Virus record (IMG/VR): IMGVR_UViG_3300033149_002282
Span: 1-27,784 of that record
Origin: a virus
Length of the DNA stretch: 27,784 bases
Reading direction: 5' to 3' (one strand)
Shown here: one piece after another, positions 883 to 27,784 of the stretch
How the letters are laid out: each line of letters begins with the position of its first letter
Position numbering within the stretch: the first letter of the stretch is position 1
The notes under the pieces: generated by a model
The model's database searches: none
What the model saw: the letters and a program-made list of their open reading frames with translations, nothing else
What the model was told of the DNA's origin: nothing
Translations under genes and position numbers: made by a program

Positions 883-890
883 TGTGCGCG
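810..890. repeat. Perfect 40-bp tandem duplication at the portal 3' end
   Basis: Bases 811-850 and 851-890 are identical, with one more matching base at 810. The unit begins ACCGAGGTATACAAACAGAT. Forty is not a multiple of three, so the second copy is read in a new frame and truncates the portal. Removing one copy restores a reading frame that ends in an ATGA overlap with the downstream gene, so the duplication is probably recent, or it is an assembly error. Confidence 0.97.
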
Positions 891-2616: not shown

Positions 2617-2986
2617 AGCCTGTCCATGTTGCGGAACAGCCCCGCGAACGGAAGAATCCATATGCCGATACGGTCTATGGTGGCAGACAGGTATCGCCGA
2701 GGTTGAGCCTCGATACAAATATCTTATTGTCTGTGAACATTGCAAGATCAAATGTGTAGCAACGTCCGCCGACAACGATACAGCGGTTAATATGGCGACG
2801 AAACTGTGGAACGAATGTCCCGAAGTTGAAATGATACGCGACTACAAAGTGCAGGCAACGATCAAGAACGATAAAATTAGATGGTCTTTACTTGGTGGCG
2901 GACACAACCCTGTGTTTGTCAGCATGAAACCGAATATCGAGACGATCTATAACCAGACACTCGAAGCCATCGCAGATATGGCATAA
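2609..2986 (+). CDS. Lar-like zinc-ribbon protein
   Basis: 125 residues. The pattern CPCC (residues 5-8), VCEHC (about 42-46) and then 'ATKLWNECPE' follows the restriction-alleviation Lar family, whose members read CPFCG...C..CG...AI.AWN. Lar proteins change the behaviour of host type I restriction-modification enzymes; many phage relatives are uncharacterised zinc-binding proteins. A second half (NDKIRWSLLGGG...) is not part of the usual short Lar and has no recognised match. The ATG overlaps the previous stop by 8 bases. Its place inside the head operon instead of an early region is unusual. Zinc binding is well supported by the Cys pattern; anti-restriction is only inferred from the family. 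Confidence 0.6.
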   Translation: MVRACPCCGTAPRTEESICRYGLWWQTGIAEVEPRYKYLIVCEHCKIKCVATSADNDTAVNMATKLWNECPEVEMIRDYKVQATIKNDKIRWSLLGGGHNPVFVSMKPNIETIYNQTLEAIADMA

Positions 2987-3087
2987 GGATTACACCATGG
3001 AATAAGACAAATATAGCTGAATAGCCCCCGCTGTATATACCTACGGCTCCCGGTTAGCTACCCGCAGCCGATTAAGGGTCATAGTCG

Positions 3088-3144
3088 CGGCATACTGACA
3101 GAGCTCAATGATAGTTCTGATAGTGTGCCGCTTTTCTTTTTTTT
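3088..3144 (+). terminator. Rho-independent terminator or attenuator before the protease-scaffold gene
   Basis: 3088-3097 (CGGCATACTG) pairs with 3121-3130 (TAGTGTGCCG) through ten pairs, two of them G-U. After one A/A mismatch, 3099-3103 pairs with 3115-3119. The loop is 11 bases. The stem is followed by TTTTCTTTTTTTT (3132-3144), and the ribosome binding site GGAGG starts at 3145. This is the only clear intrinsic terminator in the right-going block. Its U-tract touches the Shine-Dalgarno, so readthrough would set expression of the capsid genes relative to the portal genes. The 100 bp upstream (2987-3087) hold no gene; a weaker hairpin (CGGCT...AGCCG) is present there. Confidence 0.75.
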
Positions 3145-3153
3145 GGAGGCGAT

Positions 3154-5202: not shown

Positions 5203-5205
5203 AGA

Positions 5206-6018
5206 ATGCCTACATTTGACGCAAGTGGAGGTTACGCGTTGCTGATGCCTGCCGGATCACAGGCGTCCAGCACATACGAAGGTCGACATGTAATGTTACT
5301 CGAATCCTCGTTGACCCATCCGACACACGCTGATGGATTCGTTGATAAAGGTGATCCGGTAGCTGTCGGCGATATAGTCGGCGTCTCGCTCCTGAGCGCG
5401 TCGGGTGCTACCGACTACGTGACAGTCGATACCGAGGGTATCTGGTATCTGTCGGTGGTCGGGACAGACGATAACGGTGACACTGCCGTAGCGATCGGTG
5501 ACGATCTGTTCATATCGAGCTCAGGTGTGCTCAGCCCTGACAGCAGCGGTACACCGTTCGGGGTCGCGCTCGGCGCGGTTACATCCGGTGCAACGGCGGT
5601 GATCGCTGTGAAGGTACATGCGCATCCGCAACCGGGTCTGTTCGTCGATTTCATCTCCGAGACTGTAGCTTACGATGATTTCACGGACAATACCGATACG
5701 ACCGGATATATCGACCTGACGCCGACTTTGCCGATAGGTGCAATACCGCTCGGATGTAAATTCGTGGTTGCGACCGGGTTTACGGGCGATACGACCGCGG
5801 TAGTACAGGCCGGGATAGACGGTGATCTTGACCGGTTCACGGAAGATACCACCCAGTCGGTGTTGGCTGCCGGTACGGTTGGAGCTATTCCGACCAGCGA
5901 CGCGGCTGCGGGGATCGGTGCGGCGGTTACGGTACGGGTTACAGTGACAGGTGGAGCGGATTTCACGAGCATCAGTGCTGGTGAAATGACGGTATACGTC
6001 TATTACCTGCGGACGTAA
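5206..6018 (+). CDS. Probable capsid decoration protein (DUF2190-like N-terminus)
   Basis: 270 residues, acidic and rich in Gly, Thr and Val with very few Lys or Cys, as expected of an all-beta virion protein. Residues about 45-130 (KGDPVAVGDIVGVSL ... GTPFGVALGAVTSGATAVIAVKV) match the pattern of DUF2190-type capsid decoration proteins, where a short beta barrel binds the outside of the head. A second beta-rich domain follows (FVDFISETVAYDDF to the end). It lies three bases after the protease-scaffold gene and before the capsid gene, the usual place for a decoration protein. The SD is a modest AAAGGA. The family call is by pattern and position only. Confidence 0.65.
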   Translation: MPTFDASGGYALLMPAGSQASSTYEGRHVMLLESSLTHPTHADGFVDKGDPVAVGDIVGVSLLSASGATDYVTVDTEGIWYLSVVGTDDNGDTAVAIGDDLFISSSGVLSPDSSGTPFGVALGAVTSGATAVIAVKVHAHPQPGLFVDFISETVAYDDFTDNTDTTGYIDLTPTLPIGAIPLGCKFVVATGFTGDTTAVVQAGIDGDLDRFTEDTTQSVLAAGTVGAIPTSDAAAGIGAAVTVRVTVTGGADFTSISAGEMTVYVYYLRT

Positions 6019-6044
6019 ATGCAGAACAGAATAAGGAGGGGATA

Positions 6045-6326
6045 ATGAGCGAAATAGCGATTCTGCCGGAACGGTTACGGCGACGACGTGAACGAATGAT
6101 CAATCGGTTAGCGGTGTTAGCTCGGAAACAAATCGAATACGAACGGGCGGTCACCGAGATCGAGCGGGAAGTTCGAGATTTGGAAGCACAGTTCGAGTTG
6201 ATTAAAGCCGTTGAAGGTGATTGGAAAGCGCACGAAAACGCCGTCCAGGACGTAGAACAGAATCCTCAAACTGAAGAAAGGAACATGACGAATGCCTCAA
6301 CCGATAACACTTACAGAGATGAATGA
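6045..6326 (+). CDS. Small charged coiled-coil protein
   Basis: 93 residues, with the very strong ribosome binding site AAGGAGGGG ending just before ATG 6045. Residues 10-60 are a highly charged helix (RLRRRRERMINRL... IEREVRDLEAQFELI) with heptad spacing of Leu and Ile. The tail is polar (NPQTEERNMTNASTDN). It overlaps the first 35 bases of the capsid gene in a different frame and carries that gene's SD (6276-6282), so the two are probably translationally coupled. The role is unknown; an assembly helper for the capsid protein is plausible from its position. Confidence 0.75.
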   Translation: MSEIAILPERLRRRRERMINRLAVLARKQIEYERAVTEIEREVRDLEAQFELIKAVEGDWKAHENAVQDVEQNPQTEERNMTNASTDNTYRDE

Positions 6327-7440
6327 AAGCGCCGATTGGGTTGGGTACCGTGAAAATCGTCTCTCTCGAATCAATACACCCGACCATCTGGCGCGGCTCG
6401 ATGTATTCAATGCGCTGATGGAGAATCGGGATCAACTGCCGACACATCGGTGGTTATATCAGTTGCAGGAAGCCATGACGACGAGCGATTTCCCGTACCT
6501 TTTCGGCGACAGCGTGGCCCGAGAACTGCTTAGCCATTATAAGGCTGTACAGCCGAAGATGATGCAGATTCTGCGGAAACGGGCTCCGGTAGCGGATTTC
6601 CGATCGATCAAAACGTTCCGAAAATCCGGTTACGTCACGATGCGGCTCCAACAGGTGCAGGAGAAAGGCGAATATCTGGCCGCCGAATACGAAGAAGACC
6701 AGACTGAGTACAAGTTGCGCAAATGGGGTCGTCAACTCGATTTCTCGTGGGAAGCCTTCCTCAACGACGATCTCGGTCTGTTCAGCCAATGCGCTCAGGA
6801 TTTAGCCATGGCGGTGCGGAACACGATCGAGTGGTTCGTCACCACGCTGTATTGGAATGCGGCTGGCCCGATAGCTGCCAATTTCGGGAACGCAGCCGCT
6901 TCGACTGCGCCTCTGACTATCGGTGCTCTGGAAACCGCATACGAAGCGATGATCGCGTATCGGCATCCGGACACGAACGAACCGGTTATGAACGCGCCGA
7001 AATATCTGGTTGTACCCCCGGCCTTGAAATTCACGGCGGAACAGATACTACATTCCGTGCAGAAGATGTGGCTGTACCCTGAAAGTGACGAAGGTGGCCC
7101 GTTTGCATATCCAACCACAAACGTTATCTCTCAACAGGGATTGCAACTGATAGTAAACGAATGGCAACCGTTTGTCGATACCACCACACCGACAACCGCA
7201 TGGGCTCTGTTCAGCGATCCGGCACAGATAGCTGCCGGTGAAATCGCGTTTATGAAAGGTCACGAGAATCCTGAGATCGTGATGAAGAAGTCTGATAAGG
7301 TCGGGTTGGCCGGTATGGGCGATCTGTCATCGTTCACGGGCGATTTCGCGACCGATAACATCTTCTATCGTGTCCGCCATGTATTCTATGGGGCAGCGGT
7401 CGAAACCCGAGCTTGCTGGGCGTCCACCGGTACGGGTTAG
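6292..7440 (+). CDS. Major capsid protein
   Basis: 382 residues, in the size range of HK97-fold capsid proteins. The call rests on position (after protease-scaffold and decoration genes, before connectors) and on content: an N-terminal helical segment (ARLDVFNALMENRDQL), an E-loop-like stretch (RKSGYVTMRLQQVQEKGEYLAAEYEEDQTEYKL broken by charged turns), a long spine-like helix (CAQDLAMAVRNTIEWF), 'NAPKYLVVPPALKFTAEQIL' as in many phage capsid A-domains, and a late 'GMGDLSSFTGDFATDNIFYRVRHVF' closing strand. The start ATG has GAAAGGA nine bases upstream. No protease site is obvious, although the first 25 residues could be a removable arm. Confidence 0.85.
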   Translation: MPQPITLTEMNESADWVGYRENRLSRINTPDHLARLDVFNALMENRDQLPTHRWLYQLQEAMTTSDFPYLFGDSVARELLSHYKAVQPKMMQILRKRAPVADFRSIKTFRKSGYVTMRLQQVQEKGEYLAAEYEEDQTEYKLRKWGRQLDFSWEAFLNDDLGLFSQCAQDLAMAVRNTIEWFVTTLYWNAAGPIAANFGNAAASTAPLTIGALETAYEAMIAYRHPDTNEPVMNAPKYLVVPPALKFTAEQILHSVQKMWLYPESDEGGPFAYPTTNVISQQGLQLIVNEWQPFVDTTTPTTAWALFSDPAQIAAGEIAFMKGHENPEIVMKKSDKVGLAGMGDLSSFTGDFATDNIFYRVRHVFYGAAVETRACWASTGTG

Positions 7441-7468
7441 GTTCTGGTTGCTGTCGAAGAGACCCGAA

Positions 7469-7537
7469 CGGGCCGGAGGGGTGTAGGGCCCCTCCTACCG
7501 CATGGTGCGGTTGCGAATACTTCGCCCCTCTGGCCCG
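7469..7537 (+). ncRNA. Cloverleaf-like structured RNA in the capsid 3' UTR
   Basis: A 12-bp outer stem (7469-7480 with 7526-7537, one G-U) encloses three hairpins: GTAGG/CCTAC (7483-7487 with 7494-7498), CGCA/TGCG (7500-7510 region) and GCGAA/TTCGC (7513-7517 with 7521-7525). The element is 69 nt, close to tRNA size, but it has no T-loop consensus, no U33 and a 12-bp 'acceptor', so it is not a normal tRNA. No T-tract follows, so it is not a simple terminator. An alternative 7-bp hairpin (GGAGGGG 7475-7481 with CCCCTCC 7489-7495) is mutually exclusive with the outer stem. It sits in the 123-bp gap after the capsid gene, which holds no coding sequence. Confidence 0.55.
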
Positions 7538-7546
7538 GCTCTCATA

Positions 7547-7554
7547 TAGGAGGG
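7547..7554 (+). promoter_or_regulatory. Ribosome binding site that can be masked by upstream RNA
   Basis: TAGGAGGG, nine bases before ATG 7564, is perfectly complementary over 8 bases to CCCTCCTA at 7490-7497. The same CCCTCC can instead pair with GGAGGGG at 7475-7481. The three segments form an anti-anti-SD / anti-SD / SD arrangement that could switch translation of the following genes. Pyrimidine-rich tracts often match an SD by chance, so this is only suggestive. Confidence 0.4.
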
Positions 7555-7563
7555 ACGATAGGT

Positions 7564-7785
7564 ATGATCGGTATGAATTTAACAGCGGCGGAGACGGCTA
7601 TATTTGCGCTCTGTGCGACGAACATCGGTGCCCTCGTGTGGAACACTGCCTCGCAACATGTACGGCTGCGAGCGCTTGAGCGCACTATCAATAACGGTAT
7701 CTCTGATGCTGTCGCTCGACATAGCGTACAGCTGGCCGCAATCGAAACCCGATGTCGGGAACGACATGCAGGGGAGACTGAATAA
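7564..7785 (+). CDS. Small protein with one hydrophobic segment
   Basis: 73 residues with a strong SD (TAGGAGGG, spacing 9). Residues about 9-28 (ETAIFALCATNIGALVWNTAS) are hydrophobic enough for one membrane helix, followed by a basic amphipathic helix (RLRALERTINNGISDAV) and a charged end. The stop lies one base before the next ATG. Its layout is similar to small phage membrane or lysis-associated proteins, but it lies among head genes, far from the lysis cassette. No family is recognised. Confidence 0.65.
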   Translation: MIGMNLTAAETAIFALCATNIGALVWNTASQHVRLRALERTINNGISDAVARHSVQLAAIETRCRERHAGETE

Positions 7786-7786
7786 C

Positions 7787-8146
7787 ATGAGCGGAGTTCT
7801 TGACAACGAAAGTAATGTACGGTTCCATCGCGCGACCGGTACGGGCGCCATCGCCGAAAGCGTTACGATGACGGATAAATGGCGCATTATGCAGATACGA
7901 CTGCATTTAAGCGGTGCATCGGCAGCGGAAGACCTAATCGTCTCGATAGATTCTGCCGTGTCAGCCGTCTATGACGCCGTGCTCGTAACACAAGCGATGA
8001 ATGGGTTGACGGATTATGCCTATATGTTCGGTGACGGTAGCGACGGACAAATTGTCGATGGAGGTGACGCCGTCAACATAGATTATCCGAACAGTAACGG
8101 GCGCACATGGGGGCTTGAGGTCGCTTATCGCGGAGTCGGAGGCTAG
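7787..8146 (+). CDS. Hypothetical virion-type protein
   Basis: 119 residues from ATG 7787, chosen because GGGGAG (7771-7776) lies ten bases upstream; the frame extends further 5' but that part overlaps the previous gene. The protein alternates short beta-like strands with Gly/Asp turns (IRLHLSGASAAEDLIVSID; FGDGSDGQIVDGGDAVNID), has no Cys, and ends 'GLEVAYRGVGG'. This is the style of phage virion surface or fibre-base proteins. It lies one base after the preceding gene and 8 before the following one. No specific family is recognised. Confidence 0.7.
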   Translation: MSGVLDNESNVRFHRATGTGAIAESVTMTDKWRIMQIRLHLSGASAAEDLIVSIDSAVSAVYDAVLVTQAMNGLTDYAYMFGDGSDGQIVDGGDAVNIDYPNSNGRTWGLEVAYRGVGG

Positions 8147-8154
8147 CGGGTATC

Positions 8155-8688
8155 ATGGGATACGAACGGATCGACGGAAAAGACCCGGCGGTAGTTTTGC
8201 TATCGCGTCTCAACGGGCATATACACAATCAAGAGGTATGGCGAGGTATCAGTGCAGACCAGAGCGGTGACAACTGGGCCGCCGATAGACTTGTACCGTT
8301 CGTAGCCACGTCTGGTAACAACGCGTACGGTACGGACGCAAACGATGCCGCAAAGTTGATTGGTACGGACGATACACCGGTACGGGAAGGTATGACACGG
8401 TTCCATCTGCACCGCCTGTTCGTGGTAAGTGTTGACCACGACACCCCGTATAAACTGCGGTTCATTTATGGCTCGGGCACCATGGCCGACGCTATAACCG
8501 CGGGTCAATACAGCGAATTTATGGTGCAGTTTGATTCGACGTCGCCACAAGAGACCGCCGGGTTCCCAACGAACCTGATTATGCCATGCATGTGTTGTGA
8601 CATAACGAAAGTGTGGTTGCAGGCGTGGAACGCGACCGACAATTCCCAGATAGATTTCTATGTCGGGTTCCACGAATACGCGGAGTAA
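8155..8688 (+). CDS. Hypothetical virion-type protein
   Basis: 177 residues, with GGAGG upstream inside the preceding gene end. The predicted character is beta-rich with several aromatic strands (MTRFHLHRLFVVSV; YKLRFIYGSG; QIDFYVGFHEYAE). An unusual Cys cluster 'MPCMCC' occurs near residue 145. It lies between the capsid and connector genes together with the preceding 119-residue protein, so the two may form a pair of head or neck accessory proteins. I recognise no family. Confidence 0.7.
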   Translation: MGYERIDGKDPAVVLLSRLNGHIHNQEVWRGISADQSGDNWAADRLVPFVATSGNNAYGTDANDAAKLIGTDDTPVREGMTRFHLHRLFVVSVDHDTPYKLRFIYGSGTMADAITAGQYSEFMVQFDSTSPQETAGFPTNLIMPCMCCDITKVWLQAWNATDNSQIDFYVGFHEYAE

Positions 8689-8694
8689 TAACCC

Positions 8695-9057
8695 ATGACC
8701 AACGTTGAACTCGTACAGCTATTGATCGGCGATACGGCGGCGGAACTGTTTACGGTCGCCCAGATTCAAGCGTTTCTCGATCTGTCGGCTATCGGCGGGA
8801 CGGAAAACGTCTATGCGGCAGCGTCCGTATCATGTCGATCGTTGGCAGCGTCTGCGACTCTGTTGCACAAAGCCGAACGGATTGGGAACTACAGTATCGA
8901 CAGGAAAAGTATGGCTGACGCGTACCGCAATATGGCTGCCGAGTTTGACAAGATGGTAACCGACCCGCCTGTACCGACCGCTATAGGGGTTATCCAGTTT
9001 GCCCATACGAACGCGATAGCGCAACGGATCGTTGTGAACGATGCTATGAGGAACTAA
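8695..9057 (+). CDS. Head-tail connector (adaptor) protein
   Basis: 120 residues, mainly helical: 'MTNVELVQLLIGDTAAELFTVAQIQAFLDLS' then 'NVYAAASVSCRSLAASATLLHKAERIGNYSID', and a C-terminal segment rich in Ala and Val. This is the pattern of gp6/gp15-type adaptors that bind beneath the portal and extend the DNA channel. The 'ERIGNYSIDRKSMADAYRNMAAEFDKM' stretch, split here by its turn, is typical of the helix pair before the C-terminal arm. It is the first of four consecutive genes in the classical order adaptor, closure, gp10-like, tail terminator. The ATG follows GGAG with a spacing of about nine. Confidence 0.7.
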   Translation: MTNVELVQLLIGDTAAELFTVAQIQAFLDLSAIGGTENVYAAASVSCRSLAASATLLHKAERIGNYSIDRKSMADAYRNMAAEFDKMVTDPPVPTAIGVIQFAHTNAIAQRIVVNDAMRN

Positions 9058-9062
9058 ACCCG

Positions 9063-9479
9063 ATGACGTTAGCGACTGTTGTAGAATCAACCGATTATGT
9101 CGGGCTACTCACGCATACGTGCACCGTCCAGCATAAAACCGCTGTCGGCACTGACCGTGGCGGTCTACCGATCTACGACTATATCACCGACACCGAACCG
9201 GGTGTGCCCTGTCGACCCGACCCGATCAAAAGCACTGATGTGGTTGCGGTAGCCGGTGAAATAGTCAGCGCGGATTTCCGACTGTTCCTGCTCAAGACAC
9301 AATCGATTTCCAAAGATGATCGGATAACCGACATCAAGAACAGCGCCGGTGAAAGTATAGCCGTCTCGCAAGATCGAACTGATACGGATGTTGAAGCGGT
9401 GTTCAGTGTGATCGGTCGACCGGACGATGCGGGTGCCCAAGAACATCATATGGAAGTATTGATCAAGGGGGTTCTATAG
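9063..9479 (+). CDS. Head closure / stopper protein
   Basis: 138 residues, beta-rich: 'LLTHTCTVQHKTAVGTDRGG' opens like the gp16/gpFII-type joining proteins, which often start with a tyrosine or threonine-rich strand and a mention of the coordinate 'GVPCR'. The strands 'IVSADFRLFLLKTQSI' and 'HHMEVLIKGVL' follow. Such proteins close the connector channel and hold the DNA until the tail joins. The ATG follows GAGGAA, and the gene starts five bases after the adaptor and ends two bases before the gp10-like gene. The call depends largely on order. Confidence 0.6.
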   Translation: MTLATVVESTDYVGLLTHTCTVQHKTAVGTDRGGLPIYDYITDTEPGVPCRPDPIKSTDVVAVAGEIVSADFRLFLLKTQSISKDDRITDIKNSAGESIAVSQDRTDTDVEAVFSVIGRPDDAGAQEHHMEVLIKGVL

Positions 9480-9481
9480 GT

Positions 9482-9907
9482 ATGCCGTTCAAAAGCGATG
9501 TAATTGTACGGATTAACAAACAAGCGATCAAACGCGGACTAATCGTACCCGTCGCTACTGAATACGTGAAGTCCGCACAACGTATCGTGGCGACAGCTAA
9601 ACGGGACCATCCGTATACCGACCGTACTGGCAACAATACGCGGCGGATCGGATGGGCCGTATCCGGGCCGGACGATACACAGTTCGGGCCGCTTACGACA
9701 GGAGCGGGTCAGATCGACAGTTCCGGCGCGGACAAGGAATCTAAACGGGGCGAAATAGACGTGATCGTAGCGACATCGAGCGGATATGGCGGGTATCTGG
9801 AGATCGGTACACGGAAGATGAATCCGTATCCATACATTTACCCGGCATACGAGCGGGATAAACCAAAACTCGATGCCGCGTTGACGAACATTGCAGGGAA
9901 ACGGTGA
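9482..9907 (+). CDS. HK97 gp10-like tail component
   Basis: 141 residues. The segment 'YGGYLEIGTRKMNPYPYIYP' (about residues 103-122) with the following 'AYERDKPKL' is the hallmark C-terminal region of the HK97 gp10 family, where the pattern reads Y..yvE.GT..m.a.Pfl.pA. The N-terminal half has the expected long helix (VATEYVKSAQRIVATAKRD). These proteins act at the head-tail joint or at tail completion. The gene sits directly between closure and tail-terminator genes, as usual. Confidence 0.8.
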   Translation: MPFKSDVIVRINKQAIKRGLIVPVATEYVKSAQRIVATAKRDHPYTDRTGNNTRRIGWAVSGPDDTQFGPLTTGAGQIDSSGADKESKRGEIDVIVATSSGYGGYLEIGTRKMNPYPYIYPAYERDKPKLDAALTNIAGKR

Positions 9908-9910
9908 CCC

Positions 9911-10351
9911 ATGGCTGGTACAAGCGACACGGTCGATGACAAAACGATTCTCCGCGAATATCTGACGCGACCAGGTACCGACCTGTACGCGCAGGTTGCT
10001 GGTGATGTGTTTATACCGCACCCGCCGCCGACAAGCATCTGGGACGGCAGCCGGCAGAAAGGTATCGTGATCTCCCGACGCGGCGGCGGCCCTCGCGGAG
10101 AACGGTTGAGCAATATGGCTCTTCAAGCGAAATGTTACGGAGGGCCAGACGGTTGGGACGGCGCGGAACAGGTCGCCAGCGCGTTCTGCGACGCGATACG
10201 TAACGGACATGGCACGAACGTAACGTCCGGTCGCTACATAGGAGGTAACATCGAGACCAGCGGCCAACAGATAACGGAACCGGACACGAATCCACCGTGG
10301 CGATACGTGCTCGTATTCTTTTCGGCAAACCTTGGGCCGACAGCGGTCTGA
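9911..10351 (+). CDS. Tail terminator / tail completion protein
   Basis: 146 residues. The order (after the gp10-like protein and before the tail tube gene) and the content, an N-terminal helix (DDKTILREYLTRPGTDLYAQV), a central alpha-beta unit and a last strand 'PPWRYVLVFFSANL', match tail terminators of the lambda gpU/SPP1 gp17 type, which cap the tail tube and join it to the head. The segment 'GWDGAEQVASAFCDAI' resembles the helix that follows the first strands in that family. The SD is weak, and the gene starts two bases after the previous stop, so it is probably coupled. Confidence 0.65.
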   Translation: MAGTSDTVDDKTILREYLTRPGTDLYAQVAGDVFIPHPPPTSIWDGSRQKGIVISRRGGGPRGERLSNMALQAKCYGGPDGWDGAEQVASAFCDAIRNGHGTNVTSGRYIGGNIETSGQQITEPDTNPPWRYVLVFFSANLGPTAV

Positions 10352-10376
10352 GAAACACAACAGGAGGTAAACACTT

Positions 10377-10685
10377 ATGGCGTCAGTGTACACAGAAATT
10401 AGCGTCGTGACAGTCGGACGTGACGGTACCCAAATATCGACTGTCGAAGAGGCCGGTGTGATCGCCGGTAATCGGTTCAAGAACGATGGCCGAACGTTGT
10501 TGTTGGTAATCAACGATGGGGCCGGGGCATGTAACATCACGCCGGTTCTACCGGACACGATCTATGGTGATACGGTTACGTTCGTGAACGATGACGGCGG
10601 CGGAACTTTGAGCGTACCCACGCTAGAACATCGGATTTTCGGCCCGTTCCCGGTCGAACGGTTCAACCACCGGACAGGCGGTTAG
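10377..10685 (+). CDS. Small beta-rich protein, paralogue A
   Basis: 102 residues, with a strong SD (AGGAGG, then seven bases). It shares a scaffold with the next gene: 'FKNDGRTLLLVIND' against 'FANDGRTYVLMVNT', and 'RIFGPFPVERFNH' against 'KLFGPFDPSTFNQ'. The protein is acidic and beta-rich and ends in 'HRTGG'. The position just before the tail tube gene suggests a tail-tube or surface accessory. Small paired proteins of this sort may coat the virion, but no family is recognised. Confidence 0.65.
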   Translation: MASVYTEISVVTVGRDGTQISTVEEAGVIAGNRFKNDGRTLLLVINDGAGACNITPVLPDTIYGDTVTFVNDDGGGTLSVPTLEHRIFGPFPVERFNHRTGG

Positions 10686-10727
10686 CCTGGTGGCGTTCAA
10701 ATAGCATGAGAAAGGAGACTACAACCA

Positions 10728-11114
10728 ATGGCACGTGCAAGTATTACGGTAGACACACCCGGATTCTCGAACACCGCTCTGACGGAAACGGCTGTTGACG
10801 CGGGTGATACCGGCGACGGTGACGCCTTTGCCAACGACGGTCGAACCTATGTGTTGATGGTCAATACGGATGCTGCGGATACGTTGACTTTTGATTTCGT
10901 GTCTGGCGGCACGACCGATGGGCTGGCAATCGCGGATGTGACCGGGACGGTTACACCCGGTGTAGACGTCGGGTTGACGACGGCCAAACTTTTCGGCCCG
11001 TTCGACCCGAGCACGTTTAACCAGCCGTCCGGAGATTTCATCGGTCAGATTGAACTCGATTATACCGGTACGGCGGCAGCGATCACCGATAGTTTCATTT
11101 CGGTGTTCCACTAA
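10728..11114 (+). CDS. Small beta-rich protein, paralogue B
   Basis: 128 residues with the SD AAGGAG. It is related to the gene before it (shared NDGRT and FGPF...FN motifs in the same order), but it is longer, with an insert rich in Asp, Thr and Gly around residues 50-80 and an extra C-terminal strand (GQIELDYTGTAAAITDSFISVFH in part). The pair seems to have arisen by gene duplication and then diverged, because the similarity is now only in motifs. Likely a virion protein acting near the tail. Confidence 0.65.
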   Translation: MARASITVDTPGFSNTALTETAVDAGDTGDGDAFANDGRTYVLMVNTDAADTLTFDFVSGGTTDGLAIADVTGTVTPGVDVGLTTAKLFGPFDPSTFNQPSGDFIGQIELDYTGTAAAITDSFISVFH

Positions 11115-11137
11115 CGTTTGAAAGGAGAAGCTAAACG

Positions 11138-11677
11138 ATGGCACAAGAATACTCAGCGATCGATTACAATGACATCTATTACGCGGAATGGCCGACAGCC
11201 GAACTGCCGGACTCCATCACATCCAGTACCGACTGGATAAGTGCGGGGTTTACGCGAGTTGAAGAGCCTGACGGTGATGCTGGAGCCGTGTTGACATGGG
11301 TGCGGGAGACGAAGAAAAAACGGATCGCCGGATCGTTGATGGAAAGTAGCGAACATCCGATCCGTATGGGTCTCGAATCTTTGACTTTTGCATCGTTACG
11401 ATGTGACGACAAGCATCTGACGTTGGCGTTGCCGGAAGCAAGTCATGTCGGCGAACATCTGACAGCGGACGGCAACACAAAATATTTGCGGGTAGCTGTA
11501 GTGACCGACAACAACGTCTATTGGCTCAAAAAGGTCGCCAACGACGGTAAACTCACACAGACGATCACGAACACAGAGTTTACGGGTACCCCTTATACGT
11601 TTATGTGTTTTGAGGATGATAGCGCGGGCGCAAAAAAAGGTGCCGCCAACTTCCGTATCATCCCGCTAACATCGTAG
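11138..11677 (+). CDS. Probable major tail (tube) protein
   Basis: 179 residues, in the size range of short siphovirus tube proteins, with the strong SD AAGGAG. It lies between the tail terminator region and the tail chaperone genes, the normal place of the tube gene. The content fits: 'STDWISAGFTRVEEPDGDAG' (strand-turn), 'RIAGSLMESSEHPIRMGLESLTFASL', split by turns, and a late 'FRIIPLTS' closing strand. The tube protein stacks in hexameric rings around the tape measure. No alternative tail tube candidate is nearby, apart from the two small paralogues before it. Confidence 0.7.
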   Translation: MAQEYSAIDYNDIYYAEWPTAELPDSITSSTDWISAGFTRVEEPDGDAGAVLTWVRETKKKRIAGSLMESSEHPIRMGLESLTFASLRCDDKHLTLALPEASHVGEHLTADGNTKYLRVAVVTDNNVYWLKKVANDGKLTQTITNTEFTGTPYTFMCFEDDSAGAKKGAANFRIIPLTS

Positions 11678-11691
11678 AGGAGAGCACAAAC

Positions 11692-11937
11692 ATGAGCGAT
11701 CGGGAAGTAACGAAACAGTCGAAAAAAACGGGTACGGTTTATGTCGTCGGGAGAGCGCGGTTCCCGACGCGGAAGCCTGGTCTTTGGACATGTCTCGGCG
11801 TCTACCCTACCGAAACGCTGGCGAAACAAGCCTGTTATGACAAATGGTGTTGTTATACGCGCGTCAAATTGGGTATGGCCGTCGATTTGACCATCACGTA
11901 CGACCGGGGCACAGTGCAGTTTCGGAATCAGATATGA
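11692..11937 (+). CDS. Small basic hypothetical protein
   Basis: 81 residues, SD AGAGGAG. It opens with a basic polar tail (SDREVTKQSKKTG), followed by a compact alpha-beta-like unit: 'TVYVVGRARFPTRKPGLWTCLGVY', a helix (TETLAKQACYDKWCC), and a strand (GMAVDLTITYDRG). Three Cys lie close together (A-C-Y-D-K-W-C-C). It sits between tail tube and chaperone genes. No family recognised. Confidence 0.65.
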   Translation: MSDREVTKQSKKTGTVYVVGRARFPTRKPGLWTCLGVYPTETLAKQACYDKWCCYTRVKLGMAVDLTITYDRGTVQFRNQI

Positions 11938-11961
11938 CACAGACAATAGGAGGGGCATATA

Positions 11962-12579
11962 GTGGAACTCAAGGATGTATTGACCACACCGCGAACCGAC
12001 CGGCAGATATTTGATCGAGAACCTATCGAGATTACTCTCGCCGGTAAAGTCTATGAGATCAAACCTACCACCAAAACCCGATCAAAAGAGTTTCGGGCGG
12101 CTCTTAGTAAACATCGAGATTTCATTCGTCGGGCGATAGAACTGTTCCGACTGGCCTCGTCTCATGAGGCTACCGTCACAGCGGAAGAGATTGCCGATGT
12201 GCTGATACTTGGTTATACCGAGAAGCTCGATGAAGCATACGAGTTGGTGTATATTTATTGCCCAAACATCGAAGTTGACCGTGAGCGGTTGGATGACAGG
12301 GATACCGGTGCGACGGAAGAAGAATGGCAGATCGCTCTATGGTCGATATTGAAGGTAACTCTTGGCCCTTTCGCACGGGCGCTTGGGCTGAACAATGGCG
12401 AAAAATCCGGGCCGCTCGAAAAGCTCTGGCGGCTGGGCGTCGAGTACCAGAAACAGCAACAGAACGGAAGTTCAAACAACGGCTCCACAAATGGGATCAA
12501 GAACGGCGAGAAGCTATCGGATACGCCCGACTCGCCGCAGAATGGCACAAACTCCCATGCGAAATCGACGAGCTCTTGA
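11962..12579 (+). CDS. Tail assembly chaperone (upstream, unshifted form)
   Basis: 205 residues starting with GTG after AGGAGGGG. The first 145 residues hold a compact domain (ITLAGKVYEIKPTTKTRSKEFRAAL ... ELVYIYCPNIEVDRERLDD, split by turns), as in the gpG-type chaperones that coat the tape measure during tail assembly. The last 55 residues are low-complexity Gln/Asn/Ser, unlike a folded domain, which fits a tail that is read only when no frameshift occurs. The next frame is -1 relative to this one and overlaps from about 12297 to 12579. Confidence 0.75.
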   Translation: MELKDVLTTPRTDRQIFDREPIEITLAGKVYEIKPTTKTRSKEFRAALSKHRDFIRRAIELFRLASSHEATVTAEEIADVLILGYTEKLDEAYELVYIYCPNIEVDRERLDDRDTGATEEEWQIALWSILKVTLGPFARALGLNNGEKSGPLEKLWRLGVEYQKQQQNGSSNNGSTNGIKNGEKLSDTPDSPQNGTNSHAKSTSS

Positions 12580-22037: not shown

Positions 22038-22766
22038 CTAAGGTTGTAACCGGTGCGCAGCACATACCATAGCCGTCAACCGTCGGTTCTGCCGGGCTCT
22101 CGCCGTATTCGCTGCCGCAATCCATGCCGCAATGTCAGCCGTTATCCTAGCTATTCCGGCAGGAGTAGCCCAAGCCACAACTTCTTCTGATTCTCTAGCC
22201 GCAGCCACAGACTTAATATCCGCCACAGCCCGAGCTCCCGCCGCACCCCTAGCCGCAAAACGCGCTGTACTATAAGCCGCATCCGCAGCTGCCGTTCGAG
22301 CCGCAGCCCGAGCAGTATCATAATCCTCAGCCGCGAATTGAGCCTCAGCCAATTCTTCGTCCGTAGCTTTACCCTGCACCCATAACCGCTTAATACGGAT
22401 GGCGTCCCAGTACCGTTCATCGGTTATCCCCACATCTCGTAACGCTTCTTCGGCCTCCCGACACGCAAACTCGTGCAAGACCATTGTCGCGTCGATCCAC
22501 CACAGAGTCTTCCGCCACGTACCGACAAGCTTGTTCTCGACTGCGACAATCTCGTACGGCTTATCCGCCCCGATCTCAACCCGTTCGATTATCGGGCCCA
22601 GCGCATTTGAAAGTGCGTCAATCAACCGGCGCGATCCGTGCAAACCATTCCAACATAAAGCCGGTTCACCCTCGACACGTAACGTTTGCCCTTTCTTTAC
22701 CAATCGTCCGTCACCGTATCCGAGTCGTCGATCTGCCGACAAGAAATGCCATGCTAATACAGTCAT
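22038..22766 (-). CDS. 'AWHFL' protein with Ala-rich tail, copy 1 (DUF7666-like)
   Basis: 242 residues. The first 130 residues (TVLAWHFLSADRRLGYGDGRLV, 'GLHGSRRLIDAL', 'LWWIDATMVLHEFACREAEEAL', split by turns) match a widespread uncharacterised phage family of pattern AWHFL...D.R LgyGDGR.v..G.tl.v..g.p.lC..GlH.s.r..dAL; I believe this is DUF7666 but could not check. Residues about 140-240 are Ala-rich with repeated 'AAARTAAADAAY / ARFAARGAAG' units. It ends 'ARQNRRLTAMVCAAHR', as its paralogue at 23686-24306 does. It is the last gene of the left-going block, with its stop 7 bp from the converging holin-like gene. Function unknown. Confidence 0.75.
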   Translation of the reverse strand: MTVLAWHFLSADRRLGYGDGRLVKKGQTLRVEGEPALCWNGLHGSRRLIDALSNALGPIIERVEIGADKPYEIVAVENKLVGTWRKTLWWIDATMVLHEFACREAEEALRDVGITDERYWDAIRIKRLWVQGKATDEELAEAQFAAEDYDTARAAARTAAADAAYSTARFAARGAAGARAVADIKSVAAARESEEVVAWATPAGIARITADIAAWIAAANTARARQNRRLTAMVCAAHRLQP

Positions 22767-23685: not shown

Positions 23686-24306
23686 TCAATTCTTTCGATG
23701 TGCGGCGCACACCATCGCTGTCAACCGCCGATTCTGCCGGGCTCTCGCCGTATTCCGCGCTGTATCGCACGGTGCAACCTGAACCGCAACTACAACCGCA
23801 CTCCAAGCTGCGTCGGGAATCGCAGCTATGACCGCTGCCTGAGCAATAGGTTCTGACACGTCATTGTTAGCCGCTTCCCGCGCTTCATCCAACTCGTTGT
23901 CCGTTGCTTTGCCTTCGATCCACAGTCTCTTTACCCGTATCGCGCTCCAACATCGCTCGTCCGTCACCCCAGCATCTCGCAACGCATCCTCAGCCTCTCG
24001 ACATGCAAACTCATGCAGGATCGTTGTTGCGTCCATCCACCACAATGTCTTCCGCCAATTGCCGACAAGTTTCCCTTTATTCTCGATGATCTTATATGGT
24101 TCATCCGCCCCGATCTCGACCCGTTCGATTATCGGGCCTGGCGCATTGTTTAACGCGTTAATCAACCGACGTGATCCATGCATACCATGTAAACACAAAA
24201 CGGGTTCACCCTTGACGCGCAACGTCCGTCCTTTTCGTACCAGTCGGCCATCGTCATGCCCTAATCGCCGATCTCGCGGTAAAAAATGCCATGCTAAGAC
24301 AGTCAT
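23686..24306 (-). CDS. 'AWHFL' protein, copy 2 (DUF7666-like)
   Basis: 206 residues, with a good SD (GGAGG, spacing seven). It is a clear paralogue of 22038-22766: both begin MTVLAWHFL, share 'GEPVLC/GEPALC', 'GPIIERVEIGAD', 'WRKTLWW', 'LHEFACREAE' and 'KRLW', and end 'NTARARQNRRLTAMVCAAHR'. It lacks most of the Ala-rich tail expansion of copy 1. The conserved ends with a variable middle show that the Ala-rich segment is an insertion or expansion between a fixed domain and a fixed C-terminus. Function unknown. Confidence 0.75.
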   Translation of the reverse strand: MTVLAWHFLPRDRRLGHDDGRLVRKGRTLRVKGEPVLCLHGMHGSRRLINALNNAPGPIIERVEIGADEPYKIIENKGKLVGNWRKTLWWMDATTILHEFACREAEDALRDAGVTDERCWSAIRVKRLWIEGKATDNELDEAREAANNDVSEPIAQAAVIAAIPDAAWSAVVVAVQVAPCDTARNTARARQNRRLTAMVCAAHRKN

Positions 24307-24307
24307 T

Positions 24308-24562
24308 CTACGTCCTCCGTTCTACTTTCCATCTCTCTTCTTCTACGGCATCGAGCCATGCTACTGTAGTTTTATCTCGCGCAGCATCAGCTACGGCATT
24401 GAGCCATGCTACTGTAGTTTTATCTCGCACAGCATCAGCTTCAAGCCACGCAGCCTCAGCATTCTCCAGCGCAGCCACAGCTTCGTTTAGCGCAGTCTCA
24501 GCTTCATCCCACGCAGCTTCAGCTTTGTCCACCTCAGCTTTCAACCTCTCGATCTCAGTCAT
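24308..24562 (-). CDS. Ala-rich coiled-coil protein A, with tandem repeat
   Basis: 84 residues. It begins 'MTEIERLKAEVDKAEAAWDEAETAL' and shows pentad/heptad repeats of the type AEAAWDEAE. Residues about 45-76 are two copies of a 16-residue unit (RDKTTVAWLNAVADAA and RDKTTVAWLDAVEEE), coded by a 48-bp tandem repeat. It is related to 25405-25605 (same MTEIERLKAE start). The role is unknown; long single helices or coiled coils of this kind could act as spacers or oligomer stalks. SD is GAGG at short spacing. Confidence 0.7.
   Translation of the reverse strand: MTEIERLKAEVDKAEAAWDEAETALNEAVAALENAEAAWLEADAVRDKTTVAWLNAVADAARDKTTVAWLDAVEEERWKVERRT
24343..24438 (-). repeat. 48-bp tandem repeat, two copies, in coil protein A
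   Basis: 24343-24390 and 24391-24438 differ at two positions. The length is 16 codons, so the frame is kept. It codes the repeated RDKTTVAWL unit. Confidence 0.95.
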
Positions 24563-24640
24563 TGCCTCGTCATCCGTGTTACTTTCCTCTCTTTTGCTAC
24601 GGTCTCAAGCCACGCAGCTTGAGCTTCATCCCAAGTCACA
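24563..24640 (-). pseudogene. Remnant of an AWDEAEAAW coil gene
   Basis: Read on the minus strand in one frame, the segment gives WDEAQAAWLETVAKERK followed by a short tail and stop, clearly related to the end of 25405-25605 (AAWDEAEAAWLEAVAKERR). There is no start of its own. In this frame the upstream DNA reads as an Ala-rich, interrupted coil with TAG codons (for example 'AWARAVEDIMAVATARDAA'). That same DNA is read in another frame as the Gly/Cys-rich tail of the neighbouring gene (24626-25108). So a coil-type gene appears to have decayed or recombined here. Confidence 0.55.
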
Positions 24641-25108
24641 TCCCGAGTCGCAGTCTGAGTCGCAGTCTAAGTCGCAGCGTGAGCAGCGTCCCGAGCCGTC
24701 GCCACAGCCATAATATCCTCCACAGCCCGAGCCCAAGCCGCCGCCTGAGCCTGAACCTAAGCCATATCCCCAGCCGTCGCCGCAACCGTAGCTGAAACCA
24801 TACCCGTTGACATATCCAGGGCTGGAACCGTGACCATATCCGCAGCCATAACCGTCATCACAACTGTTGATGGAACCATGGCCGGAGCCGGAACATGCCA
24901 TAGCGTAAAGCGGTATACCACACTCGTTCATTATCGTTTCTGCAATCTCCGGCAACTCATCTTCGATCCATACAGCATCTTCATATGTTAGCTTGTCGAA
25001 CAAATTGTCACCGACATGATACACTTTTAACCTGGATTTACAGGCACATGCTGTTCGCGCAGCATCAAAATTCTCTTGTGTTATGGTATATCGCATCATG
25101 AGTTTCAT
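24626..25108 (-). CDS. Conserved-type phage protein with Gly/Cys-rich tail
   Basis: 160 residues from ATG 25108, which overlaps the stop of the preceding gene (ATGA). Residues 1-72 form an alpha-beta domain (MRYTITQENFDAARTACAC, 'YEDAVWIEDELPEIAETI', 'IPLYAMACSG'), resembling small phage proteins that end in Gly/Asp/Tyr repeats. From about residue 75 to the end it is almost all Gly, Cys, Ser, Tyr and Asp (GYGCGYGHG, GCGDGWGYGLG, CDLDCDSDCDSGC). At least ten Cys lie in this tail, so it could bind metal or cross-link. The tail overlaps, in a different frame, DNA related to an Ala-rich coil gene. Function unknown. Confidence 0.65.
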   Translation of the reverse strand: MKLMMRYTITQENFDAARTACACKSRLKVYHVGDNLFDKLTYEDAVWIEDELPEIAETIMNECGIPLYAMACSGSGHGSINSCDDGYGCGYGHGSSPGYVNGYGFSYGCGDGWGYGLGSGSGGGLGSGCGGYYGCGDGSGRCSRCDLDCDSDCDSGCDLG

Positions 25109-25401
25109 TCCCAAAGATTTGGAATTGCAAACCGCGCAACAGCTTCTGGAGTACAGTCAATAATCGCTGTTACACCATCGAGTCGGATTTGCGGTACCGT
25201 AGGGCCAACTCGCGATCCATCTGCCGGGCCTGTTGCCGCCAACCCAAGTACCCCATGTGTAGCAGCAGACCAATAAACGATCATTCGGGCGTCTGTCAAT
25301 TCTACTGGGCTGCCGACATCACCAGATTTAAACGTTCCGTAAAATACTCCTCGTCGTCTAGAATCTGTCGTTACAATCACATGTCTCTTTTTGTTATTCA
25401 T
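25105..25401 (-). CDS. Small conserved phage protein (DUF6948-like)
   Basis: 98 residues, SD GGAGAT. The string 'HVIVTTDSRRRGVFYGTF', then 'DARMIVYWSAATHGVLGLA', 'GPADGSRVGPTVP' and 'CTPEAVARF' match a small phage protein family of pattern RGVFyG....DaRm.vYWsa.t.GvlgLA..Gp..gsRvgp..p, which I believe is called DUF6948 but could not check. The family has no known function to my knowledge; it usually travels with early genes. It is translationally coupled to the Gly/Cys-rich protein. Confidence 0.7.
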   Translation of the reverse strand: MNNKKRHVIVTTDSRRRGVFYGTFKSGDVGSPVELTDARMIVYWSAATHGVLGLAATGPADGSRVGPTVPQIRLDGVTAIIDCTPEAVARFAIPNLWE

Positions 25402-25404
25402 TAT

Positions 25405-25605
25405 CTATCTCCTTTCTTTTGCTACTGCCTCAAGCCATGCAGCTTCAGCTTCATCCCACGCAGCTTCAGCTTCACACCGCATACCCTCAGCCTTGCGGCA
25501 CGCAGTCTCAGCTTCATCCCAAGCCTTGCGGCACGCAGTCTCAGCTTTATCCCACGCAGCTTCAGCTTTGTCCATCTCAGCTTTCAACCGCTCGATCTCA
25601 GTCAT
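25405..25605 (-). CDS. Ala-rich coiled-coil protein B, with tandem repeat
   Basis: 66 residues beginning 'MTEIERLKAEMDKAEAAWDKAE', nearly identical to coil protein A over the first 20 residues. It is made of repeated AEAAWDEAE and ETACRKA units, with 33-bp direct repeats in the DNA (25490-25522 and 25523-25555). The ATG at 25605 overlaps the stop of coil protein C (ATGA). The protein is a highly charged amphipathic helix with a periodic Trp. Function unknown. Confidence 0.7.
   Translation of the reverse strand: MTEIERLKAEMDKAEAAWDKAETACRKAWDEAETACRKAEGMRCEAEAAWDEAEAAWLEAVAKERR
25490..25555 (-). repeat. 33-bp tandem repeat, two copies, in coil protein B
   Basis: 25490-25522 and 25523-25555 differ at two positions. 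The repeat is 11 codons, so the frame is kept, and it codes the unit AWDEAETACRK. Confidence 0.9.
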
Positions 25606-25813: not shown

Positions 25814-26353
25814 CTATGCCCACCCCAGCACTGCGTTGATCACCATCTGCACGTCAACCGCGTTGACAAACCCGTCGCCATCGACGTCAGCCCACAGTTT
25901 GCTAATCTCGATGATCTCCGGTGCAGGAGGCGGTGCCGGAACACACGCCACATGCACCGACACCGGACGATCCTCACTTTCGGTTCCAAGCTTATCAATA
26001 CAATACGCTCGATATTCGTAAGCTCCAGCCTCCGCCACATATATGTCGACAATAACCTCCCACGGCAACTCTTGATCTTCTGCGATCGGAAAGCGTAACA
26101 CTTCCGCCCAGAATTCAGTCCCGGCATCCGTAAATGGTCGGCGCTCGATGACCGCCCAGACGGGCCGATCTTTCGGGAACTCCGGCGCCGGTATACGCAG
26201 GGTTAGATGATGTTCCATCGCAACCCACTTTTGCCGATCCGCCGGTGGCTCTTCACCAGCGGCCCACAAAAGCCGCACTGCACACGTCACCAAGCCCACT
26301 ATACACGCGACAATCACGATCTCCATCCACCATCTGTTCATAAACAATTTCAT
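25814..26353 (-). CDS. Membrane-anchored protein with a dockerin-like calcium repeat
   Basis: 179 residues with the SD AGAGGAG. Residues about 11-31 (EIVIVACIVGLVTCAVRLLWA) form one membrane helix or signal anchor. The middle (35-140) is beta-rich, similar to an Ig/FN3-like domain (LRIPAPEFPKDRPVWAVIER, 'VIVDIYVAEAGAYEYRAYCID', split by turns). A Pro-rich linker (VPAPPPAPE) follows. The end contains D156-V-D158-G-D160-G-F-V-N164-A-V-D167, the dockerin type I calcium-loop pattern, and 'MVINAVLG', its helix. A full dockerin has two repeats; here only one is seen. It could anchor a phage protein in the envelope or bind a cohesin-like partner. Stop and start overlap neighbours by a few bases. Confidence 0.7.
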   Translation of the reverse strand: MKLFMNRWWMEIVIVACIVGLVTCAVRLLWAAGEEPPADRQKWVAMEHHLTLRIPAPEFPKDRPVWAVIERRPFTDAGTEFWAEVLRFPIAEDQELPWEVIVDIYVAEAGAYEYRAYCIDKLGTESEDRPVSVHVACVPAPPPAPEIIEISKLWADVDGDGFVNAVDVQMVINAVLGWA

Positions 26354-26790
26354 ATTTTTGTCTCCTCTGGTTTGTTCTCATCTTCCAACAGTTCGACCTC
26401 CAGCCATATACCGGGGCTCGTATCTTCTTGCGGCCACAGTTTTTTCATGTGCGTTTCGCACACCTGTGCATCGGGGATAAACTGGTTGATCGCATCGAGC
26501 AGGGTTTTCTCGTGGTTGTCCAGATCGCCATGTCGTTGTGCTGTCGGATACCGGAATTTCGTTCTGCCTGGCCGCCGAATAAAGAACCAGCCGGTGACCT
26601 TTATTGGCGTCATGCCAACGGTCTTCGCATAATCTCGGAATCGACCGGCCAACAGATGATATGCGATCTCATCAACGGTCTCTTTGGTCGGTGATACAGC
26701 GTGTCCTGACCGATATACCCGGGGCCGTTTCATAGCCCGAGGCACGACCGGAATCCACAGCTCAAACCGTGTTGACGACTTCTTCTTCAT
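26350..26790 (-). CDS. RusA-family Holliday junction resolvase
   Basis: 146 residues. The catalytic pattern D89-L-D91-N-H-E-K95 followed by D107 ('PDAQV') and K116/K117 matches RusA (D-x-D-N-x-x-K ... D...). It is metal-dependent and nicks symmetrically across four-way junctions, as in recombination and genome processing. 'FFIRRPGRTKFR' and 'WLEVELLE' fit the surrounding strands. It sits in the same unit as recT, which supports a recombination role. Length is in the family range. The end overlaps the next start (26353) by 4 bases. Confidence 0.85.
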   Translation of the reverse strand: MKKKSSTRFELWIPVVPRAMKRPRVYRSGHAVSPTKETVDEIAYHLLAGRFRDYAKTVGMTPIKVTGWFFIRRPGRTKFRYPTAQRHGDLDNHEKTLLDAINQFIPDAQVCETHMKKLWPQEDTSPGIWLEVELLEDENKPEETKI

Positions 26791-27037
26791 TCTCGTTTTC
26801 CCCGAATACCTTTATGCGCTTTTTGGTATAAGCCGCGCAAAATTGCACATGCTGTTTGCGCAACGTCTCTCGGCACGTAAGACAGAGATCACCAAAGATA
26901 TAAACTGCGAGAACCTCGTTTGTCGGGTCTTCGATCTTCCCAAAGCTCTCCGTAACCCTTATTTCGACTAGTCCACCGGCTTCGTGCGGCGGAATCTCAT
27001 CCGCGCATCTATCGCAGAATATCTGTTCACGTTTCAT
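26762..27037 (-). CDS. Small zinc-ribbon protein
   Basis: 91 residues with AAAGGG upstream. Two CxxC pairs, 'FCDRC' (residues 8-11) and 'LCLTC' (about 51-55), suggest a zinc ribbon. Between them are strands 'VEIRVTESF' and 'VLAVYIFGD'. It ends in an acidic run (GENENEEEVV). It overlaps rusA by 29 bases, so the two are coupled. The upstream leader holds the pentanucleotide array. Function unknown; small zinc ribbons of this kind occur near phage recombination genes. Confidence 0.65.
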   Translation of the reverse strand: MKREQIFCDRCADEIPPHEAGGLVEIRVTESFGKIEDPTNEVLAVYIFGDLCLTCRETLRKQHVQFCAAYTKKRIKVFGENENEEEVVNTV

Positions 27038-27093
27038 CTTTTTGCCCTTTCTGTTCCGTGTTGCCGTTTCTTCGCGACCCGATTTCTATCGTG

Positions 27094-27183
27094 CCTTACC
27101 CTACCTTACCTTGCCTTACCCGACCTGACCGGGCCCCACCCGACCCCACCCTACCGTACCAGACCCTGCCCCACCACTCCTCA
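27094..27183 (-). repeat. Array of 18 pentanucleotides (CCNNN on +, NNNGG on -)
   Basis: Reading in steps of five from 27094, every one of 18 consecutive units begins with CC on the plus strand (CCTTA, CCCTA, CCTTA, CCTTG, CCTTA, CCCGA, CCTGA, CCGGG, CCCCA, CCCGA, CCCCA, CCCTA, CCGTA, CCAGA, CCCTG, CCCCA, CCACT, CCTCA); 12 of the 18 end in A. On the minus strand, which is transcribed from recT, this is a run of TNNGG-like pentamers. It lies in the 162-bp gap between recT (stop at 27200) and the zinc-ribbon gene (start 27037). The rest of that gap has no ORF of note. It is not a normal promoter, terminator or CRISPR. Confidence 0.9.
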
Positions 27184-27199
27184 CGTACTCATACCCTAA

Positions 27200-27784
27200 T
27201 CACTTTGTTTCGGTCGTGTTGTCCGTCACAAACATATCAGCTGTTGCGGGTTCCGTGAACACTTGAATCGTGGATTCAACATCATCCATAAGCTCTTGTG
27301 TCTTGTCAGGTTTTGGTTGTGTCGGTGTCACATCAACCAGTTCTTCTTCAGATATACCGGCCTCCGCGTTGTCTTCAGTTTCGAGCGCACGGGCCAGTTC
27401 CGGCGACATCGGCAGATATTTGAGCAACCGCCGTACAACGGTTTTACGCCGCATCTCACTCGTATCGGTCGCCCACGGCCCGCTATTCTTCGCTTTACTT
27501 CGATGCCGAATCGTCTCGATCTCATCATCGGTCATCCACTCGAACTGTCGGTGTCCACCGTCCATAACCGCCACTGCATAGCTACCGAGATATGCGCCTC
27601 TGTCACCTGTCACACGCGGCTCATGCTGTATCCGCTCTTCGGTGCCCTGCACGATCTGAAAGGTCTCACCAGCGTAGACGTTACGTGCCCAGACCGCCAT
27701 AACATCACCCGATCGGCGTGCGAGCCCAATCAACCCCCGGTATCCGACGATTAGTGTACACTGTTTGCCGTACGGCACGGGGTA
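27200..27784 (-). CDS. recT: RecT-family ssDNA annealing protein, C-terminal part
   Basis: The frame is open to the right edge of the window (GTG at 27778 is only an internal codon), so the N-terminus is missing. The visible part has the family core: 'VPYGKQCTLIVGYRGLIGLA', 'SGDVMAVWARNVYAGETFQI' (split by turn), 'GSYAVAVMDGGHRQFEWMTDDEI', 'KTVVRRLLKYLP'. RecT-type proteins anneal complementary ssDNA and act with a 5'-3' exonuclease in phage recombination; the partner would lie to the right of the window. The C-terminal tail (EEELVDVTPTQPKPDKTQE) is acidic and disordered, as usual. It is the first gene of the left-going unit seen here. Confidence 0.85.
   Translation of the reverse strand, partial: YPVPYGKQCTLIVGYRGLIGLARRSGDVMAVWARNVYAGETFQIVQGTEERIQHEPRVTGDRGAYLGSYAVAVMDGGHRQFEWMTDDEIETIRHRSKAKNSGPWATDTSEMRRKTVVRRLLKYLPMSPELARALETEDNAEAGISEEELVDVTPTQPKPDKTQELMDDVESTIQVFTEPATADMFVTDNTTETK

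Follow-up and report, generated by a model that had tools for sequence, protein, structure and literature searches.

The window analysed here, a stretch of 27,784 nucleotides of viral DNA, ends within a recombination operon encoded on the minus strand. The upstream gene (27200..27784, minus) codes for a RecT-type single-strand annealing protein (Pfam RecT, 3.5e-33; PHROG 148); its 5' end lies outside the window and continues in contigs L012 and L066, and the gene is complete in L012. Downstream of it are the gene of a 91-amino-acid cysteine-rich (zinc-ribbon-like) protein (26762..27037, minus), for which no Pfam or PHROG family was matched, and the gene of a RusA-like Holliday-junction resolvase (26350..26790, minus; Pfam 8.7e-8; PHROG 140). 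The gap between the RecT and the cysteine-rich protein genes is 162 bp long and holds the array that is the subject of this report; the neighbouring junctions measure -10, -71 and +38 bp, and one other large gap of the operon, 178 bp, lies further upstream.

Elsewhere in the window, positions 25814-26353 encode a phage protein whose N-terminal part includes a hydrophobic segment and whose C-terminal part has a dockerin type I half-repeat (Pfam 8.7e-6). Positions 24308-25605 contain a cluster of small repeat-built minus-strand genes, with heptad-like Ala/Glu/Trp coiled-coil repeats, which at the DNA level are tandem repeats of 21 and 48 bp, and with a Gly-Tyr-rich protein in whose gene CC recurs at six-base intervals, for 12 units from 24720. 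A pair of paralogues that end in Ala-rich repeats (MTVLAWHFL...GDGRLV.KG.TLRV.GEP.LC) is encoded on the minus strand at 22038-22766 and 23686-24306; at E 0.01 no Pfam family was assigned to either of them, and the first has a relative in the related phage G003.

The array consists on the plus strand of 18 uninterrupted CCNNN pentamers starting at 27094. If phased with the base before CC, the units occupy 27093-27182 and read GCCTT ACCCT ACCTT ACCTT GCCTT ACCCG ACCTG ACCGG GCCCC (units 1-9) and ACCCG ACCCC ACCCT ACCGT ACCAG ACCCT GCCCC ACCAC TCCTC (units 10-18). The sense strand is the minus strand, which is also the coding strand of the flanking genes. On this strand the first unit is GAGGA, followed by 17 NNGGY units, and the NN dinucleotides are, 5' to 3', GA GT GG AG CT AC AG GG CG for units 1-9 and GG CC CA CG AA AA AA AG AA for units 10-18. 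CC chains at this phase reached at most 5 units when the window was shuffled 100 times under a first-order Markov model, as against 18 in the array, and chains of other dinucleotides at period 5 did not exceed 6 in the whole window. These values confirm the 90-base, 18-pentamer array with GG at every fifth base that had been described in the initial annotation. The statement made there that the other three bases vary holds for NN and fails for the third base, which is constrained to Y. GG is present in 18 of 18 units and Y in 17 (13 GGT and 4 GGC), the exception being the GGA of the first unit. Thus, GGY is the conserved part and NN is the variable part of the array.

A simple repeat arising by slippage was considered and ruled out, in agreement with the earlier opinion that this is not a slipped-strand repeat: there are 10 distinct dinucleotides among the 18 NN, and the two cases of identical neighbouring NN are not more than expected from permutations (p 0.44). 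On the 5' side of the array three extra in-phase units (AGGGT ATGAG TACGT; 27183..27197, minus), two of them degenerate, can be read directly. They begin 2 nt past the RecT stop codon and bridge RecT to the array; possibly they are decayed array units. No Rfam match was found at E<=1 within 26700-27784.

Units of this kind are known from VIPR, a phage-borne forerunner of CRISPR and the proposed ancestor of CRISPR RAMPs (PMC13142463, bioRxiv 2026). Vipr, a RAMP homologue of ~20 kDa, binds vrRNAs made of 9-16 YNNGG units, in which GGY is conserved and the hypervariable NN is the guide; NN pairs with double-stranded DNA, one base being skipped between dinucleotides, and the Vipr-vrRNA complex silences the genes of competitors, which may be phages, satellites or prophages (PMC13142463). 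The published vrRNA is a ~100-nt transcript with an invariable structured 3' tail (PMC13142463). Besides vipr and vrRNA, a VIPR system usually includes a vap gene. The array of the window (27093..27182, minus; 18 NNGGY units) was listed as a vrRNA-type guide array on the grounds that its unit matches the published vrRNAs (PMC13142463) and the arrays of phage SUSP1.

A scan of a viral collection in which the sole requirement was a series of twelve CC at 5-base phase gave at least 120 stretches. Many unrelated viral records were among the matches listed, and the unit common to the arrays among these was NNGGY with near-random NN, save for a minority of plain repeats. In 241 viral arrays among the matches listed, the two N columns carried 1.95 and 1.99 bits, and position 5 was C in 76% and T in 19%. 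A family of proteins was then built by iterated search, using as seed the protein that adjoins the array in locus L025. Relatives of the seed were present in 81 of 122 viral loci among the matches listed. Where the arrays were of the hypervariable GGY type, the family was encoded in 80 of 105 viral loci (among the matches listed) and in 6 of 15 genome loci, and where the repeats were of other types, in 1 of 125 loci (among the matches listed). Array and gene were on the same strand in 217 cases and on opposite strands in 6, likewise among the matches listed. A scan of genome contigs (RCCNN x15) yielded mostly simple repeats, with a member of the family in only 6 of 120 loci.

Members of the protein family share a glycine-rich motif, GxGDFRP...GRF, at the C-terminal end. 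Its AlphaFold model (pLDDT 82) found its best PDB matches in CRISPR RAMPs, mostly Csm3 (Foldseek best E 0.025, probability 0.92), with VIA Z up to 8.6 and rmsd about 4.5 over 139 residues. On structure scores alone, the predicted fold suggests with moderate confidence that the family resembles a Cas7/Csm3-like RAMP. The family profile matches the Vipr gene of SUSP1 (28477-29079, minus; E 4.6e-36), which has NNGGT arrays on both flanks, and also a gene of a Pseudomonas phage that is preceded by arrays. Because of the match to SUSP1 Vipr, the array-linked RAMP-fold family is Vipr, and it was reached starting from the array alone. A single scan for the bare pattern sufficed, with no protein profile, to recover dozens of Vipr loci, which shows how powerful the 5-base phase is as a handle for searches. 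PHROG 4652 (function unknown) matches the Vipr of L025 (8020-8583) at 3.5e-12 and can probably be relabelled Vipr.

Vipr-bearing viral loci can contain up to 43 uninterrupted units, far more than the 9-16 of published vrRNAs, and up to seven arrays of at least 12 units; very long or multiple GGY/NN arrays were seen in L029 (6308-7012), L067 (7600-9150), L112 (4357-5145) and L080 (3460-4563).

In view of the identity of the unit and of the association with Vipr that arrays of this kind show in general, we regard the array of the window as very probably vrRNA-type in kind. The same association bears on several explanations put forward in the initial annotation. GG at every fifth base could make two-tier G-quadruplexes, GG is Shine-Dalgarno-like, and RecT adjoins the array, so that a quadruplex region, a set of Shine-Dalgarno decoys, an annealing or replication site on which RecT is loaded, or a plain degenerate pentanucleotide repeat could each be imagined. 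None of these predicts the exact 3-nt spacing, the Y at position 3, the near-random NN or the repeated occurrence of such arrays next to, and on the strand of, a single RAMP family, and a signal of slippage is lacking. The quadruplex, the Shine-Dalgarno and the RecT ideas all leave unexplained why GGY/NN arrays recur near Vipr genes in unrelated phages, and we consider an element of any of these sorts very improbable.

A single further copy of the window array was found. It lies in L066/L012, the contig of a near-identical phage, and agrees with the window in every letter, which makes an assembly error unlikely. The array is absent from a relative with 71-72% identity in RecT (L013/G003) and must therefore be dispensable; the sequence of another relative, G002, stops at the end of RecT and says nothing on the presence of the array. 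With regard to conservation, which had been proposed as a check, the array is thus shared with the near-identical phage, and so is not missing from all close relatives, and it is not shared with the 72% relative.

The 55 nt 3' of the array (27038..27092, minus) are a candidate vrRNA tail, in which a hairpin is followed by the leader (AGAAAGGGCAAAAAG-ATG) of the downstream gene. The hairpin, predicted immediately 3' of the array, is small (four pairs, CGAT-AGAA-ATCG), and its energy is no better than that of shuffles (z about -0.8). A blastn comparison of 345 array tails returned only the identical copy, and a pattern joining the tail core to an array had L066 as its sole match in the viral collection. 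No intrinsic terminator was found after the array; one weak promoter-like site upstream of it does not count as evidence. vrRNA tails look conserved within clades only, and the window phage offers a single array for comparison. Successive arrays in one locus with a common hairpin tail and differing NN were observed in L016 (tail CCTTATTGCRAGGAATARGGCGG...), L024 (in which the stem sequence varies around a constant CTGAAAT loop) and L043; these tails are good material for a covariation model of the vrRNA tail.

In searching for a vipr gene we made use of two overlapping records. L261 (G001) is 100% identical to the window across the overlap save for two short length differences and extends it 5.3 kb leftward; L066 (G004), at 99.9% identity, adds 3.8 kb past the RecT end of the window. 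The outer ends of L261 and L066 share 114 identical bases, so that the three sequences close into a circle of about 36,768 bp in which the late and early operons diverge from the join. The join is supported by G003, which is contiguous at the corresponding place, with the terminase on one strand and the first early genes on the other. Thus, the genome of the window phage is apparently complete in the composite of the window, L261 and L066. The early genes identified include DnaB, YqaJ exonuclease, RecT and RusA. As a separate observation, a perfect 40-bp tandem duplication at the 3' end of the portal gene (window 810-890), which alters the last codons of the portal ORF, is single-copy in L261 (6125-6165).

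Profile search of the window, L261 and L066 gave no match to Vipr. In a profile-profile comparison (hhalign) of 158 ORFs of at least 90 codons from the ~36.8 kb composite, the highest probability was 2.7%. As positive controls, 45 Viprs held out of the profile were all recovered, at 63-100% and all but two above 94%; these came from the same search and may be easier to find than a Vipr of an unknown type. A recognisable vap gene was not found in the window phage either. Since the vipr gene was sought and not found, the array was not filed as a VIPR system. The phage might still possess a complete system, if its Vipr were too divergent for the profile, or if vipr had been missed because the circle joins contigs from different records. 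Viprs comprise seven types with high sequence diversity (PMC13142463), one held-out fragment scored only 63%, and several ORFs of the window phage matched no family. Set against this, 45 of 45 held-out Viprs were recovered, compared with at most 2.7% for any ORF of the phage, and the genes that flank the array encode RecT, a small cysteine-rich protein and RusA, which are not RAMPs. We therefore hold an overlooked Vipr to be improbable. If the phage has none, three readings are left: an RNA that serves a Vipr encoded elsewhere, a decoy and a relic.

The published rule was used to decode the target of the array, which is GA.GT.GG.AG.CT.AC.AG.GG.CG.GG.CC.CA.CG.AA.AA.AA.AG.AA; with the 1-nt skip the site is GANGTNGGNAGNCTNACNAGNGGNCGNGGNCCNCANCGNAANAANAANAGNAA. 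Sub-patterns of the target (units 1-10, 7-17 and 4-12, 1-nt skip) had 0 exact matches in the viral collection, no mismatches being allowed. When 0-3 skips were tried on 2.07 Mb of fetched sequence, the best 1-nt-skip match was 24/36, the same as with shuffled guides. Thus, with no exact sub-pattern match and with local near-matches equal to those of shuffled guides, neither a self-target in the window phage nor any other target was found. Comparison of 304 arrays with the fetched loci showed no skip rule in excess, a result that carries no weight against the rule in a sample of only 2 Mb. With respect to the host, TerL matches were spread across many hosts at <60% identity, and the MCP gave only about 23-31% against 392 Planctomycetota genomes.

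We think it likely that the array is a stand-alone vrRNA-type guide, situated in a recombination operon and working in trans with a Vipr from another element; a decoy and a relic are the main rival explanations. The position of the array, in a gap that is large for this operon, is in line with such a guide. Under the trans-guide explanation the RNA would be read from the minus strand of the operon, and its GGY triplets would be held by Vipr subunits, as in the mechanism described in the VIPR literature. Together, the 18 NN dinucleotides would spell out the target DNA as NNxNNx..., where x is the base passed over between two dinucleotides. The guide would be loaded in trans into a Vipr from a prophage, a satellite, a co-infecting phage or the host, and the loaded complex would silence a competitor. 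Several observations do not sit easily with this explanation. Vipr, normally the defining partner, is missing in the window phage; 18 units exceed the published 9-16, although arrays of 41-43 units occur in the Vipr-bearing L029; the candidate tail has little structure and is unlike the tails of the other arrays; no target was found; and the array is dispensable, being absent from G003.

Part of these observations could also be taken to indicate a relic, that is, a vrRNA that remained after the loss of vipr and is no longer functional. The absence of Vipr, the two degenerate in-phase 5' units, the GGA of the first unit, the lack of the array in G003 and the unconvincing tail structure would fit such a history, but 18 perfect GG in a row and Y in 17 of 18 units would not last long unselected, and the array is identical in two phage records. 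For these reasons we find a relic unlikely.

Small-RNA anti-CRISPRs mimic repeats. By analogy, the phage might express the array as a vrRNA mimic; the Vipr of a resident prophage or of the host would be sequestered by it, and the phage would be shielded from VIPR. An array without Vipr in a closed genome, its length of 18 units, a tail not common to other systems and the failure to find a target are in line with such a decoy. However, NN is as diverse as in Vipr-linked arrays, a feature that decoys need not have, and to our knowledge there is no precedent of a Vipr decoy. We rate this explanation as slightly less probable even than a relic.

The window phage is not the only one with a stand-alone array. 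In all, 25 further array records were checked whole. Twenty of them were without a Vipr match, and the sensitive comparison was also negative in 14 of these, one of which (G023) had no qualifying array on re-scan. Two of the records without detectable Vipr are about 105 kb long, G017 with an 18-bp terminal repeat and G008 with nearly repeated ends (134/148 bases); the remainder may for the most part be fragments. There is an even chance that stand-alone vrRNA arrays without Vipr form a class in phages, whose members would either hijack the Vipr of another element, as trans-acting guides, or disarm it, as decoys. In records without detectable Vipr the arrays often terminate in a GGA or GGG unit (L286 (G010) 1922-12015; L294/L295 (G025); L304 (G017)), and in G010 terminator-like hairpins of similar sequence follow three arrays.

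TRAP-binding RNA has about 11 (G/U)AG triplets with 2-3 nt spacers. It is like the window array in having triplets ~5 nt apart, variable filler and a multi-subunit protein as reader, the last being proposed in the case of the window array. It differs in the triplet, which is (G/U)AG in TRAP targets and GGY in the array, and TRAP does not fit because NN carries information; in arrays of the window type the filler is a guide, there is a link to a RAMP fold, and up to 43 units occur. Of the initial suggestion of an RNA array read by a ring or filament protein such as TRAP, the general idea has therefore survived, as the protein that binds vrRNAs of the same unit, Vipr, is related to the filament RAMPs of CRISPR (PMC13142463), and TRAP itself has not.

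The proposed use in trans would have a parallel in virus-borne mini-CRISPR arrays, which are thought to borrow Cas proteins. These are likewise short viral guide arrays with a proposed role in inter-virus conflict that can stand apart from effectors (PMC6858448). They are made of CRISPR repeats and contiguous spacers for Cas proteins, unlike GGY/NN, and the parallel in mechanism is an analogy only. If the trans-guide explanation is true, a guide without its protein would mean that Vipr can be shared or subverted between elements, as has been proposed for mini-CRISPR arrays.

The closest known system is the vrRNA of type II VIPR (SUSP1; Pseudomonas fulva prophage; PMC13142463). In comparison with it, the window phage is without vipr and without a recognisable vap and has one array only, which is of 18 units instead of 9-16 and is without a recognisable conserved structured tail. 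The two are alike in the tandem NNGGY units with hypervariable NN, in the intergenic position, in the sense orientation and in being borne by phages, and the arrays of SUSP1, like that of the window, are mostly GGT.
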